This document shows, in pieces, positions 20,901-31,346 of a stretch of DNA of 64,000 nucleotides. The first letter of the stretch is position 1. Each line of letters begins with the position of its first letter. The DNA comes from Phycisphaerae bacterium (GTDB lineage: Bacteria > Planctomycetota > Phycisphaerae > Sedimentisphaerales > Anaerobacaceae). The stretch is taken from NCBI GenBank assembly GCA_028714255.1, contig JAQTMR010000002.1:144544-208543 (forward strand), given 5' to 3'. The position numbers were made by a program, and so were the translations under genes. The notes under the pieces were generated by a model, which was not told the DNA's origin, searched no databases, and was given only the letters and a program-made list of their open reading frames with translations.

Positions 20901-21806
20901 TCAAAAAACTATCGCTGCGTAGCCGACGGCTTCTTCGCTTGGAGTCCCCATTTTCTCAATCATCACTTTGTTGCTATTGGTATGGGCAAGCAGCAGGCCC
21001 TTTGTTTTACCAAGTTTCTTGGCGACGGCGACCGCTGCAGCCGCTGCGCCTGCTCCGCAGGCATTATAGTTTTCGGCGGCACTTATCAGCATTTTCTGCG
21101 GGTTCAACTGCAAAGCGAAATCAATAAATTCTTTATCGTTAACTTCGCTTGCCCATTTCAGGGCCTTGGCCCCTGTCCCCATAGGCGTAAAGCCGTAGCC
21201 GGGGCCGTAATGGGTCAGGTCGGTTGAGCCGAGGCAGATGATTTTTTTCTGCTGACTTTTAATAATATCGCCGACGGCGTCGCCGAGTGAAATTGCCTGC
21301 TCGCTCGGCGGGGTTAGAATCGGCAGGATTTTCGCACTCGCCTCGGCGAAGCAAGGCGAAGCCGGGTCGCCGAATAAATGCTGAATGAACGGGACCTGAA
21401 CCTCGATACTGTTTGGTTCGCTATCGTGTGCGTCAGGGTCAGCAACAGCGGCGCCGGTTTTCAGGACGGCGTCTGCTAATTCCTCATCGACAGCAATTTG
21501 GCCCAAAGGAGTTAGCCAGCTTCCCTGAGCATAAACAGCCGGGGTGTGGCCGTAATAGCAGTGTGCCGCTCCGAAGATGATGAAGGTATCAACTTCGCCG
21601 CAGCATTGTTTTATCGCGGAGAAGACGAGGCCCGCCAAGCCGCCGCTGAATGTCCAGCCTGCGTGCGGGACGATGCCGGCGACTATTGTTTCGGGCAGAT
21701 GGCCGGGGAGTTTTTCTTCCCGGAGGCATTCGCTGATTTCAGCGAGGCAGGAATTATGCCCGGCGGGGTAAAACTGGCCAGCGACAATCGGTTTTCTTGT
21801 TTGCAT
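20901..21806 (-). CDS. amrB: AmmeMemoRadiSam system protein B (MEMO1-like)
   Basis: The protein has the MEMO family features: RKPIVAGQFYPA at the start, GIVPHAGWTFSGG, FGAAHCYYG, DSEPNSIEVQVPF, and STDLTHYGPGYGF. MEMO proteins are structurally related to extradiol dioxygenases with a conserved His-based metal site; the bacterial role, with AmrA and a radical-SAM partner, is unresolved. Neither partner is next door. A 12-13 residue stretch, GDPASPCFAEASA (21333-21371), interrupts the conserved HLF...KILPIL segment and is encoded by a GC-rich repeat-like sequence. The ATG at 21806 is preferred over the GTG at 21815. Confidence 0.88.
   Translation of the reverse strand: MQTRKPIVAGQFYPAGHNSCLAEISECLREEKLPGHLPETIVAGIVPHAGWTFSGGLAGLVFSAIKQCCGEVDTFIIFGAAHCYYGHTPAVYAQGSWLTPLGQIAVDEELADAVLKTGAAVADPDAHDSEPNSIEVQVPFIQHLFGDPASPCFAEASAKILPILTPPSEQAISLGDAVGDIIKSQQKKIICLGSTDLTHYGPGYGFTPMGTGAKALKWASEVNDKEFIDFALQLNPQKMLISAAENYNACGAGAAAAAVAVAKKLGKTKGLLLAHTNSNKVMIEKMGTPSEEAVGYAAIVF
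21333..21371. repeat. GC-rich repeat-like insertion inside amrB
   Basis: The segment ctcgcctcggcgaag...ggcgaagcc shares wording with the element in the M20 deacylase gene (27887-27965: cgcctcgcggcgaagccgag). It keeps the reading frame and encodes PASPCFAEASA. Confidence 0.55.
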
Positions 21807-21879
21807 CTTAAACACTCGGCGGTTATGATTTTTAAGAGAATTTAGGATAATATTGTAACCATAAGTTCGAGGGAAAACA

Positions 21880-22416
21880 ATGGCGTCTGAAAAGAAAAGT
21901 TCCGTTCATGGTGAGCCTGTCGAATCCATCGCGGTAGTGATGGGTTCCGACAGCGATTTGGCGGTGATGCAAAGCTGTGTCGATAGTCTTAAGGAATTCG
22001 GTATTGAGCCGATAGTTCGGGTGATTTCGGCGCATCGGACGCCTGAGATAGCTGCGGAATTCGCGCAAAACGCTGCTAAAAACAGAATAAAGGTTATAAT
22101 TGCTGCTGCGGGCATGGCGGCGCATTTAGCCGGCGCATTGGCGGCGAAGACTACTTTGCCGGTGATAGGCGTGCCGTTGATTTCGAGTTCGGGGTTGGAA
22201 GGGATTGACGCGTTTTTGAGCACGGTGCAGATGCCGCCCGGCGTGCCGGTGGCGACGGTCGCGATTGGAAAAGCGGGCGCGAAAAACGCGGCTATATTGG
22301 CTGTGCAAATTTTAGCTTTGTCTGATAAAGGCCTTGCTGACAAACTCGTCGAGTTCAAGAAGCAGCAGGCGAAGAAGGTAATCGAAAAAGATTCGGAAAT
22401 TAGGAAAAGTAGGTAA
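21880..22416 (+). CDS. purE: N5-carboxyaminoimidazole ribonucleotide mutase (PurE class I)
   Basis: The PurE core is intact: VVMGSDSDLAVM, ISAHRTPE, GMAAHLAGALAAKTTLPVIGVP and STVQMPPGVPVATVAIGKAGAKNAA. It rearranges N5-CAIR to CAIR in purine synthesis. The N-terminus is about 15 residues longer than usual, and that part (SVHGEPVES) is encoded by a copy of the GGTGAGCCTGTCGAA-type dispersed repeat at 21910-21927. GAGGG six bases before the ATG supports the long start. Its 3' end is duplicated at 25138. No PurK is seen, but a PurN domain lies at 29.7 kb. Confidence 0.93.
   Translation: MASEKKSSVHGEPVESIAVVMGSDSDLAVMQSCVDSLKEFGIEPIVRVISAHRTPEIAAEFAQNAAKNRIKVIIAAAGMAAHLAGALAAKTTLPVIGVPLISSSGLEGIDAFLSTVQMPPGVPVATVAIGKAGAKNAAILAVQILALSDKGLADKLVEFKKQQAKKVIEKDSEIRKSR
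21910..21927. repeat. GGTTCGACAGGCTCACC-family repeat, inside purE
   Basis: Sequence ggtgagcctgtcgaatcc, the inverse orientation of the copy at 22435-22451. Other members: 28892-28909, 52848-52864 and a divergent one at 302-322. Confidence 0.75.
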
Positions 22417-22437
22417 TTTAGGCATATTGAATTGGGT
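22251..22437. repeat. Segment duplicated at 25138-25322 (purE 3' end, original)
   Basis: About 185 bases covering the last ~55 codons of purE and the following bases match 25138-25322 with roughly eight differences by eye. Beyond it the copies share blocks such as ggctttgtttgggtt and gggtttgttttgcataattt, interrupted by different inserts. Confidence 0.9.
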
Positions 22438-22730
22438 TCGACAGGCTCACCACAGGTTGGCTTTGTTTGGGTTTGTTTTAAGTAGTTCATAGTTCGTTGT
22501 TCATGGTTATTAGTCATTGCAGAATAGGGGGTTAAGTATATTTCTGGCGTTTCTGAAATTGGGTTTGTTTTGCATAATTTAGTTGTTTTGATTGAGTCGT
22601 ATCGCTGGACAGAATAGCGTAAGTAACAACTATTATGCAAATTAGTTCCAACATAAGAAGGTTTAAAGAATCCTATGAAAGAGTGGAGTCAAAACAATTA
22701 TGGTTTGACTATCCGGAGGAGTAGAAAAAC
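22417..22730. other. Repeat-rich gap after purE
   Basis: It contains a GGTTCGACAGGCTCACC repeat (22435-22451) and the block gggtttgttttgcataattt, which recurs at 25498. No gene is evident. Confidence 0.6.
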
Positions 22731-27542: not shown

Positions 27543-28718
27543 TCAGGTCAGAAATTCCAGGATGAGATTCTTATAGAATTCAGCGGCTTTTTCCATATCG
27601 GCGATTTCGATGTATTCGTCCGGCTTGTGGGCGAGCGGCGTCCGGCCTGGGCCGAAGATTACAATCGGAGCGCCCAAAGAAACAAAATGCGGGCCATCGG
27701 TGGTGTAGCCAACAGCTTTAGTTTTGTTTATCCCCACGGCAGAGCAGAAATCCCTTACAAAATCGCAACTCGAATCGGTTTCCAACGCACCGACTTCTCG
27801 GACAACGGAGGCCGAGGCGTCGAAGTTGGGATTTTCCTGTTTTAGCTTTGCGAAGATTTTTTCAAAGTCAGAGATTATCTCGCGGGTATTTTGTCCCGGC
27901 CCGCCTTGCCCGACTTGCGCTCGCCTCGCGGCGAAGCCGAGGGTCTGGCGAGTCGAGGCAGGCAGCGTGCGAATATCTATTGCGATAGTGCAGTTGTCGG
28001 GTACGACATTAATTTCTTTTCCTGCCGTGATTGTATTAACGCTCATCGAGCAATCGCCCAATAGTTTGTGCGGCTGAAATTTAATTTTATAGCTTTCCAA
28101 TTCGTTCAAGAAAGCTCTCATCGAAGTAATCGCATTTACGCCAAGCTGCGGCATCGAGCTGTGAGCGGTTCGGCCTTTGGTTTTGACTTCGAGCCATAAT
28201 ATTCCGCGATGTGCGGTGACGATATCGAAATCGGTCGGTTCGGGGACAATCACGCCTGCGACTTTCGGCGGGTTGTTCTTGAGGTCATTGATAAATCTTT
28301 TTGCTCCGCAGCTATCGGTTTCTTCGCCTGCAAGGGCGGCAAATATAATATCGCCTTTTAATTTAGTTCCGGAATCGACAATCTGGCGAACTGCGGCAAC
28401 GGCGGCGGCGGTTCCGCCCTTCATATCCATTGAGCCTCTGCCGAAGACTTTGCCGTCGCATTCTTCGGCGGCGAAAGGCGGATGCGTCCAGCCCCGGCCT
28501 GCGGCGACGACATCGATGTGGCAGAGGAACAAAAGGGCGGGCTTTTGTCCTGTGGAGGTTATTTGTGCGGTAAGATTTGCCCTGTTCGTATCCCAGCGGT
28601 CTATTCGGCAAGTTATTCCTGAGCGGGCAAAGTCGTCTGAAATTACCTCAGCGGCGGCCAATTCGCCCTTTTCGGCGGTGGATTCGGCCTGAACAAGTTT
28701 TTTCAAAAGCTCTTTCAT
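27543..28718 (-). CDS. M20-family deacylase/peptidase (ArgE/DapE-like)
   Basis: With the start at ATG 28718 (the track start adds 43 unlikely residues) the protein has 391 residues. Metal ligands are in place: His67 (LCHIDVV), Asp98 (GRGSMDMKGG), the Glu pair 132-133 (AGEETDS), Glu160 (VPEPTD) and a C-terminal His (LAHKPDEYIE). It should remove an acyl group from an amino acid such as acetylornithine or succinyl-diaminopimelate; which one is not decidable. A segment of about 20 residues, LGFAARRAQVGQGGPGQ (27887-27965), interrupts the dimerisation domain and is encoded by a palindromic repeat. Confidence 0.85.
   Translation of the reverse strand: MKELLKKLVQAESTAEKGELAAAEVISDDFARSGITCRIDRWDTNRANLTAQITSTGQKPALLFLCHIDVVAAGRGWTHPPFAAEECDGKVFGRGSMDMKGGTAAAVAAVRQIVDSGTKLKGDIIFAALAGEETDSCGAKRFINDLKNNPPKVAGVIVPEPTDFDIVTAHRGILWLEVKTKGRTAHSSMPQLGVNAITSMRAFLNELESYKIKFQPHKLLGDCSMSVNTITAGKEINVVPDNCTIAIDIRTLPASTRQTLGFAARRAQVGQGGPGQNTREIISDFEKIFAKLKQENPNFDASASVVREVGALETDSSCDFVRDFCSAVGINKTKAVGYTTDGPHFVSLGAPIVIFGPGRTPLAHKPDEYIEIADMEKAAEFYKNLILEFLT
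27887..27965. repeat. Palindromic element inserted in frame in the M20 gene
   Basis: Arms gcccgccttgcccgact and (reverse complement) gcctgcct-cgact frame an inner ctcgcctcgcggcgaagccgag that is itself nearly self-complementary. It adds about 20 residues without breaking the frame and shares wording with the insert in amrB (21333-21371). Confidence 0.65.
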
Positions 28719-28760
28719 GGCTCTGATTATACAAACTATTGCGTGAAAGTAAAAAAAGAG
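28719..28760 (-). promoter_or_regulatory. TATAAT box immediately upstream of the M20 start
   Basis: On the minus strand TATAAT ends seven bases before the ATG at 28718, with a weak TTTTAC/TTTACT about 17 bases further up. Transcription would start at or next to the ATG, implying a leaderless or nearly leaderless mRNA. Confidence 0.45.
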
Positions 28761-28808
28761 GAAAATTTTATTGCGGATTAAAACACAAATGAGCATAATG
28801 CTGGACTT

Positions 28809-28845
28809 GCCCCCTTTTCTGTCTTCGACAGAAGGCGAAGGGGGC
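28809..28845. repeat. Nested palindrome
   Basis: Outer GCCCCCTT (28809-28816) and AAGGGGGC (28838-28845), inner TTCTGTC-ttc-GACAGAA (28817-28833). It is built like the palindrome at 15361. Confidence 0.8.
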
Positions 28846-28891
28846 ATAGCCGGACACTAATCGCCATCGGGCGGGCAGTGGAGAACATAAT

Positions 28892-28938: not shown

Positions 28939-29673
28939 ATGGGACCTGTATTGAGTGCTCTTATAAAACTTCAAAGCGTTGAAAACCAGCTTCGGGCGGC
29001 AAAAGCAAAACTTGCGAGATGCCGAAGAAACGTAATCATTCAGGAGAACCAGGTCAGGAGCCTGCAAAACGCATACGAAGCCAAAAAAGAAGAGATTCAG
29101 TTAACCAGGGTCCAGTCCGACCGTCTTGAACTGGAACTGAAAACCAGAGACGAAGAGATAGCCAAGTTGCGAGCCCACCTTAACGCGGCGAAAACAAACA
29201 AAGAATACGCCGCGGTTTTGACCCAGCTTAATACAACCAAGGCAGACAATTCCAAATACGAGACGCAAATCCTGGATTTGATGAAGGATGTCGAGGCGGA
29301 CGAAGCAGAATGCGCGAACCTTCAGGGCCAGATAGACGAGAAGAAACAGGCACTCGAACAAATCCGAAAGGAAGCTGAGGTAGCGGCGAGTAAATACGAG
29401 GCCGAGATAGCAGAAATCCAGATTGAATGGGACAAGAAAACACAGGATATACCGGCTGAGCCGTTGCGGGTTTTCAATCGCGTCGCGGAAACTTATGACG
29501 GCGAAGCGCTGGCGGTGATCGAGAAACAGGATGGCAAGGTAGAGGCCTATAGCTGCGGCGGCTGCTTTATGGGCATTACAACGGAGTCCGTCAACCTGCT
29601 GCTGACTAAAGACGACATCATCCGTTGTCCGAGCTGCACGAGGATACTCGTACTTAGCGAATCGAATAGTTAA
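28939..29673 (+). CDS. Coiled-coil C4 zinc-ribbon protein (zf-RING_7 family)
   Basis: The 244-residue protein is a long coiled coil over residues ~5-175 (heptad-rich, Glu/Lys/Leu) followed by a C-terminal zinc ribbon with two Cys pairs (SCGGC and CPSC). This is the pattern of the C4-type zinc ribbon/CdsZ-like family, implicated in nucleic-acid or secretion-related roles in other bacteria. The same arrangement upstream of an RNase H-like gene occurs in other genomes, and here the RNase H-PurN gene follows after 40 bases. The ribosome site is ggagtcg, about nine bases from the ATG. Confidence 0.85.
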   Translation: MGPVLSALIKLQSVENQLRAAKAKLARCRRNVIIQENQVRSLQNAYEAKKEEIQLTRVQSDRLELELKTRDEEIAKLRAHLNAAKTNKEYAAVLTQLNTTKADNSKYETQILDLMKDVEADEAECANLQGQIDEKKQALEQIRKEAEVAASKYEAEIAEIQIEWDKKTQDIPAEPLRVFNRVAETYDGEALAVIEKQDGKVEAYSCGGCFMGITTESVNLLLTKDDIIRCPSCTRILVLSESNS

Positions 29674-29713
29674 TTGCCGGCTTCCGATTTCCAGCTTTAA
29701 GGAGCTAAACACA

Positions 29714-30784
29714 TTGCCGGAGCAAACAGGGCAAATCATCATCTATGTAGATGGCGGCAGCAGAGGCAACCCCGGCCCGGCTGCTGCGGGCTTTGTATTA
29801 GCCGATGCCGGCGGAAACCAATTACAGGCCAAAGCTTTTTTTCTTAACCACGCCACAAACAACGTGGCCGAATATACCGCGATTATAAAAGCACTCGAAG
29901 CAGCGAAGCAGATTAACGCCGAAAGGCTGACGATTTTCAGTGACAGCGAGTTGCTCGTAAGGCAGATTAACGGCCAATACAAAGTAAAGAGCGAGCAAAT
30001 CAGGCCGCTTTTTCAACGGGCGGTCAATTTAATTAACGACTTTGAAGACTGGAAGCTCAAGCACATTCCCAGAGAGAAAAACAAACGGGCCGATGCTCTC
30101 GTTAACCAGGCGCTGGATATCAAAGGGGACATCGAAGACGAACCGGCCCGGGCATCGCAAAATAAAAAACCAATCCGGCTGGGCGTATTGATTAGCGGCG
30201 GCGGCACGACATTAATGAATATTCTCGAATATATAAACAAGGGCCTGTTGAACGCCAAAATCGCTGTCGTAATAAGCTCGCTATCTAAAGCGGGCGGCGT
30301 CAAAAAAGCAAAAGCCGCCGGTCTGGATGTAAAAATCATCCGCAAGAAAGACTATTCCAGCCTCAAGAAGTTTAGCAATCGCATCGAAGACGAGCTTGCT
30401 GCGGCAAATGTTGACCTGGTCATTCAGGGTGGCTGGCTCTGTCTGTGGGAGATACCGGCCCGATACGAAAACCGCGTGATGAACATACACCCAGCTCTTT
30501 TGCCGAGCTTCGGCGGGGAAGGTATGTGGGGACATAATGTTCACGCGGCGGTTCTCGCGACAGGGTGCAGGGTAAGCGGCTGCAGCGTGCATTTCTGCAC
30601 GAATGAATATGATAAAGGGCCTATAATTATTCAACGGTGCTGCCCGGTTAAAAATGATGATAGTCCGGAGAGCCTTGCTGCGAGAGTTTTTGAGCAGGAA
30701 TGTATCGCATATCCCCAGGCCATAAAGCTGTTCGCAGAGGGTAGATTGCTTGTCCGGGACGGCAGGGTGGAAATAAAATCGTGA
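29714..30784 (+). CDS. Fusion of RNase HI-like domain and PurN-type formyltransferase
   Basis: One unbroken 356-residue frame, TTG start with AAGGAG nine bases upstream. Residues ~5-140 are an RNase HI domain with all four acidic catalytic residues: Asp of YVDGGSRGNPGP, Glu of NVAEYTA, Asp of FSDSELLV and Asp of KRADALVNQA. After an acidic linker, residues ~152-356 form a glycinamide ribonucleotide formyltransferase: LGVLISGGGTTLMNIL, NIHPALLPSF and DKGPIIIQ with the Asn/His/Asp active-site trio. The first domain removes RNA from hybrids; the second adds formyl to GAR in purine synthesis. The combination is unusual. Confidence 0.9.
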   Translation: MPEQTGQIIIYVDGGSRGNPGPAAAGFVLADAGGNQLQAKAFFLNHATNNVAEYTAIIKALEAAKQINAERLTIFSDSELLVRQINGQYKVKSEQIRPLFQRAVNLINDFEDWKLKHIPREKNKRADALVNQALDIKGDIEDEPARASQNKKPIRLGVLISGGGTTLMNILEYINKGLLNAKIAVVISSLSKAGGVKKAKAAGLDVKIIRKKDYSSLKKFSNRIEDELAAANVDLVIQGGWLCLWEIPARYENRVMNIHPALLPSFGGEGMWGHNVHAAVLATGCRVSGCSVHFCTNEYDKGPIIIQRCCPVKNDDSPESLAARVFEQECIAYPQAIKLFAEGRLLVRDGRVEIKS

Positions 30785-30845: not shown

Positions 30846-31346
30846 ATGAACAAACGACAAAAAGCCATATTAAGAGATACTGCAACTGTAATAGCTATTA
30901 CAGCTATTGCGGTTGTCGCGATGATTGCCCTGAGGAACTGGATTAATCGTTCGGAAGCAATGCGGGCAATGGAGCATCTCGGACGAGTGGTCGTACAGTA
31001 TCGACAAAGCCATGGTTCTGTTCCCTCAGAATCCTACATCAATAGAACAAGAGAAGAATTAGAAGGGCGTGTTCGGCTCGGCGATGTGACATACAGGGCC
31101 CAGTGGATTAATTTCGAATCGTCTCCCGATGAAATTCTGGCTTATACTGAAAAACCTCACGGTTCATGGCTGTTCGGTAAGAGATATATTGTTCTTCGTC
31201 TTGACGGCCGGATAGAATGGATGGGCAAACAAAAACTCGATATGCTTTTGGCCCAACAGCGGAGCTTCCAGGAGCTCGAATCGTTGCGGGAGAAATCGAA
31301 GCAAATTTTGCATCCCCCATCTTTCGACCCCACCTTCAGCCCGTAG
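30846..31346 (+). CDS. Uncharacterised membrane-anchored protein
   Basis: 166 residues with a single N-terminal transmembrane segment (TVIAITAIAVVAMIAL, residues ~13-30) and a soluble domain. The stretch from EAMRAMEHLGRVVVQYRQSHGSVPS looks like the helix after the anchor in pilin-like or secretion-associated proteins, but no prepilin cleavage motif is seen. No known family recognised. Its stop is close to the convergent clpC stop. Confidence 0.6.
   Translation: MNKRQKAILRDTATVIAITAIAVVAMIALRNWINRSEAMRAMEHLGRVVVQYRQSHGSVPSESYINRTREELEGRVRLGDVTYRAQWINFESSPDEILAYTEKPHGSWLFGKRYIVLRLDGRIEWMGKQKLDMLLAQQRSFQELESLREKSKQILHPPSFDPTFSP

Follow-up and report, generated by a model that had tools for sequence, protein, structure and literature searches.

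An RNase HI–PurN fusion protein conserved over most families of one order of Phycisphaerae

One frame carries two complete enzyme domains

The window, by which we mean the whole stretch of 64,000 nucleotides analysed, carries at 29714-30784 of its forward strand a single open frame of 356 aa with a TTG start; an AGGAG motif lies nine bases upstream of this codon. The features of the locus are as follows:

28939-29673, forward strand: zinc-ribbon gene (Zn_ribbon_9, CdsZ-like; PF02591, 41 bits), 40 bases upstream of the fused gene
29700-29704, forward strand: AGGAG, likely ribosome-binding site for the TTG at 29714, from reading of the sequence
29714-30784, forward strand: fused RNase HI-PurN gene (356 aa), matched without a break in 75 of 89 family genomes
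29732-30118, forward strand: RNase HI domain, residues 7-135, with D13, E53, D77 and D127; RVT_3/RNase_H match, sites invariant (91 proteins), fold matching 4e19 and 3hst
30119-30172, forward strand: linker, residues 136-153; varies among relatives, pLDDT under 50 at residues 145-149
30173-30769, forward strand: GAR formyltransferase (PurN) domain, residues 154-352, with N257, H259 and D300; TIGR00639 above cut-off, sites invariant, fold matching 3auf
30846-31346, forward strand: ORF166, which follows many fused genes; in the unfused family f5 a homologue is flanked by purN and nadA

The N-terminal half was matched over cut-off by Pfam RVT_3 (PF13456; 83 bits, residues 12-133) and RNase_H (PF00075; 51 bits), and the C-terminal half by Formyl_trans_N (124 bits, residues 155-337) and by the NCBIfam PurN equivalog TIGR00639, which scored 162 bits (cut-off 150). 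Family match, fold and D-E-D-D residues place the first half among type 1 RNases H; the equivalog model, fold and N-H-D residues identify the second as a GAR formyltransferase. All seven catalytic residues (D13-E53-D77-D127 and N257-H259-D300) are invariant among 91 distinct fused proteins; the original prediction of one frame with two complete domains, both with intact active sites, is thus borne out, and a degenerate half is ruled out. Both halves are under purifying selection, with dN/dS values of 0.04-0.26 (NG86; some of these involve dS above 1 and are unreliable).

AlphaFold prediction (34 fused relatives) gave two confident domains with a mean pLDDT of 86.9, a break at residues 145-149 and a pTM of 0.56; given that break and pTM, the mutual placement of the domains is uncertain. 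TM-scores by target were 0.96 to Halobacterium RNase H1 (4e19) and 0.91-0.94 to the N-domain of Rv2228c for the RNase HI half, and 0.86 to the Symbiobacterium GAR transformylase (3auf) for the PurN half. The linker of the window protein, IKGDIEDEPARASQNKKP (residues 136-153), had been described as acidic, although it contains 4 acidic and 4 basic residues; the linkers of the relatives average 3.4 acidic and 4.4 basic residues, without acidic bias, so that acidity of the linker does not characterise the family. Linker length ranges from 16 to 61 residues (median 18) among the 91 distinct fused proteins, with an identity of about 27%.

Distribution of the fusion

A continuous match across both domains was found in 75 of the 89 genomes of the family (counted by hand from the table); in 6 more a single frame holds both domains but has a longer linker or an insert, and the remaining ones are mostly cut by contig ends or incomplete. 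Many independent genomes keep this junction uninterrupted in a single reading frame, which excludes the missed frameshift at the linker that the original prediction had advised checking for. An order-wide search found the fusion in families f1, f2, f3, f4 and f7 and in genus g77 of family f6, and did not find it in family f5 nor in the f6 genera g76 and g78. Outside the order, the stronger matches, listed across 298 genomes from the class and 294 from the phylum, included none that covered both the RNase HI half and PurN. The fusion is therefore conserved over most families of one order of the class Phycisphaerae (Planctomycetota); its proposed lineage specificity holds, being confined to this order, in which the nearest unfused relatives (f5) have two separate genes. 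No published RNase HI-PurN fusion was found in open-access full texts, and the fusion apparently has been undescribed so far.

Two fused genes of irregular build were observed: at L186 (G062:C15) the linker is longer and an insert interrupts the match within PurN, and the match of L187 (G112:C55) reads through one TGA. Separately, the PurN sequences at L110 and L111 are 62-64% identical to that of the window; the titles of their records, "Actinomycetes bacterium", look misassigned (G183 and G165 fall in the window's class).

Gene neighbourhood and origin of the fusion

Where a locus has enough flank, the gene directly upstream is the zinc-ribbon gene in 84 of 85 cases for the fused genes and in 21 of 22 for the unfused RNase HI genes of the same type in the class. 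Since it precedes both fused and unfused genes, the zinc-ribbon-rnhA pair predates the fusion. The sole exception among the fused loci, L085, has about 2.1 kb between the two genes, with a 580-residue frame inside.

On the other side of the fused gene, ORF166 encodes a small protein with a hydrophobic stretch at its N-terminus and without a match in Pfam or NCBIfam; at locus L169 of f5 its homologue (27% identity, E 2e-11) is located between purN and nadA. The order in unfused f5 is ileS, sometimes followed by one or two small genes, then purN, then nadA, and the ileS-purN adjacency is also found in the outgroup families f12, f13 and f18; IleS and NadA are presumptive identities, named by us from the sequences and not model-based. 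In the RNase HI tree the fused proteins form one clade, whose support of 92/88 is slightly below the strict threshold; f5 (99/95) is placed close by. Resolution of the PurN tree is poor, and on it a single origin was neither demonstrated nor dismissed (AU test, p-AU 0.10).

The simplest account of gene order and trees is a single transfer of purN-ORF166 onto the end of rnhA. The block would have departed from its site between ileS and nadA and arrived behind the zinc-ribbon-rnhA pair, purN being joined in frame to the 3' end of rnhA early in the order; ORF166 apparently travelled together with purN.

Elsewhere in the window, three reverse-strand frames (27543-28847, 20901-21815 and 21906-22640) contain the odd in-frame stretches GFAARRAQVGQGGPGQNTREI, SPCFAEASAKILP and CGEPVEPN, which resemble short dispersed repeats that have inserted into reading frames.

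Relatives without the RNase HI half

Genera g76 and g78 of f6, represented by three single-contig genomes that are 98-99% complete, have a standalone PurN. Its gene stands directly after the zinc-ribbon gene or overlaps it, which is the place of the fused gene, and the protein clusters with the fused f2/f6 PurN (97/81, PurN tree); the sole RNase HI detected in these genomes is an E. coli-type gene elsewhere. Most likely, the RNase HI half was lost once the other RNase HI was available, and PurN persisted alone. That PurN was kept without its partner indicates that the halves can work apart.

Role of the fused protein in its genome

The genome to which the window belongs is 98.9% complete, and its sole RVT_3 or RNase_H match is the fused protein; a second RNase HI was not found with these profiles. 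Apart from it, the genome apparently has one other RNase H, a divergent RNase HII-like protein of 319 aa (L138:1489-2448, forward strand, G000 contig C5), which gives 35 bits with PF01351 over the whole protein, the first stretch of the match being only 21 residues long.

The fused protein is likewise the only PurN detected. There are two further Formyl_trans_N matches: one in a 321-residue frame that lacks detectable similarity to the fused PurN and, by its size, is presumably a methionyl-tRNA formyltransferase; the other, in a 593-residue frame, is partial and 26% identical. PurD is present and PurT was not found, no match in the genome reaching the PurT cut-off; this combination of genes fits GAR formylation by the PurN half. 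With no other RNase HI or PurN detected, the cell probably needs both halves.

A probable pair of independent enzymes on one chain

Fusions of enzymes from different pathways are often taken to signal a functional link. Here we consider it probable that the protein is two independent enzymes on one chain, joined by a chance fusion early in the order, whose reactions are not coupled. To judge from the domains and the gene content, the N-terminal half, as the only RNase HI of the cell, would cleave RNA in RNA/DNA hybrids, and the C-terminal half, as the only PurN, would serve purine synthesis by formylating GAR; the flexible linker would tether the halves, each acting independently. The fusion would then have been kept because both halves are needed and their joint production is harmless, and not because their reactions are coupled. 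The loss in g76 and g78, the free linker and the separate genes of the sister family together argue against an obligate functional link, and the fact that the halves were separated again in some relatives makes a chance gene move the most likely source of the fusion. Against independence stands the wide retention of the fusion: five families and one genus of a sixth have it in almost every member, and some gain from joint production would also explain this.

A different reading, which we regard as rather unlikely, is that the C-terminal partner physically serves the RNase HI half through substrate contact, dimerisation or stability. This type of RNase HI would be without the basic protrusion, as reported for the relative Rv2228c; PurN would provide a folded, possibly dimeric body, and different lineages would have taken different tails for one purpose. 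The tails on this RNase HI do differ. They comprise PurN in the fused proteins, CobC in Actinobacteria and a C-terminal cupin (profile match 3rns, E 1e-10) in the unfused RNase HI of f5 (L142, L143, L145, L149, L150, L151, L156); a further tail, TIGR04076-like, is present at L144, L146, L152, L153 and L162 (3 of the 5 match, best E 1.2e-6). With the cupin form of f5, this locus shows a second domain architecture of RNase HI, and at L158 and L161 the tail is cysteine-rich and zinc-ribbon-like. As unfused relatives bear cupin and TIGR04076-like tails, the C-terminus of this RNase HI seems to gain domains repeatedly; one RNase HI lineage has thus acquired differing partners.

Structural help is also favoured by the RNase H domain of Rv2228c, which in vitro is slower alone than as the full-length protein (PMC7466739). 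However, the same RNase HI type is almost tailless in several families (L147, L148, L154, L157), the linkers are variable, and removal of CobC hardly affected M. smegmatis, the actinobacterial CobC domain being dispensable for RNase H function in vivo (PMC7466739). Correspondingly doubtful is the combined reading that the zinc-ribbon-linked RNase HI C-terminus is a site of repeated capture (PurN, cupin, TIGR04076-like, CobC) and that the captured body, irrespective of the reaction it catalyses, aids binding, dimerisation or stability.

The original prediction combined a lineage-specific fusion, which stands, with a coupling of nucleotide supply to RNA turnover, which found no support. Such coupling of purine supply to RNA/DNA hybrid removal, with GAR or formyl-folate being sensed for instance, would agree with the long conservation of the fusion, but we hold it to be quite improbable: the RNase HI half was lost secondarily in two genera with PurN intact in place, the sister family f5 is unfused, the linker is free and variable, the placement of the domains is uncertain, and the two enzymes have no pathway step in common. 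Moreover, in the most thoroughly studied analogue, MSMEG_4305, the RNase HI-CobC protein of M. smegmatis, the domains are functionally dissociated in vivo (PMC7466739).

That the one frame yields separate proteins, by an internal start or by cleavage of the linker, is more improbable still. The linker is exposed and variable, as this would require; but the only in-frame start codon at the window junction is a TTG without a Shine-Dalgarno match, and a start codon with such a match occurs in just 6 of 93 relatives, so that an internal PurN start is unsupported. A sequencing or assembly error joining two neighbouring genes has practically no likelihood left and is ruled out as an artefact by the continuous match in 75 of 89 family genomes, the single long frame in 6 more and the fused frames in other families of the order.

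With two independent enzymes on one chain as the preferred reading, the visibility of the fusion, of the older neighbourhoods and of the later undoing makes this locus a clear-cut case in which to test the idea that a fusion was fixed by chance while its halves stay independent. Annotation should give the protein both names, rnhA and purN.

Comparison with known systems

The nearest parallel is the RNase HI-CobC protein of Actinobacteria (Rv2228c, MSMEG_4305, SCO2299; NF005567), which likewise joins the same N-terminal RNase HI type through a variable linker to a C-terminal metabolic enzyme; its partner is the CobC phosphatase, whereas that of the window protein is PurN. This parallel is drawn from published work and not from a tree computed here. 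The NF005567 model, whose cut-off is 326, reached 133 bits on the window protein and aligned only to the RNase HI half; the C-terminal half is Formyl_trans_N, not a CobC-type acid phosphatase. The gene upstream of the fused RNase HI-PurN gene resembles Rv2229c, which we take to be a zinc-ribbon protein. Rv2229c, a protein of unknown function, is in an operon with Rv2228c (PMC7466739).

Standalone PurN proteins (TIGR00639; 3auf, 2ywr) have the whole domain, the catalytic N-H-D residues and the fold in common with the window protein, which differs in carrying PurN as the C-terminal half of a longer chain. Standalone RVT_3-type RNases HI (Halobacterium 4e19, LC11 3u3g) share with it the whole domain, the D-E-D-D residues and the fold but are without PurN; instead, the halophilic protein is extended at its N-terminus (match at 64-197). 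In the eukaryotic trifunctional GART (GARS-AIRS-GART; 1meo, 4zyv) a GAR transformylase domain is also found at the C-terminus of a fused chain, but there the partners belong to the same pathway, while the partner in the window protein is a nuclease. The window protein thus belongs to the known type of RNase HI with a C-terminal metabolic enzyme, with PurN as a new partner.
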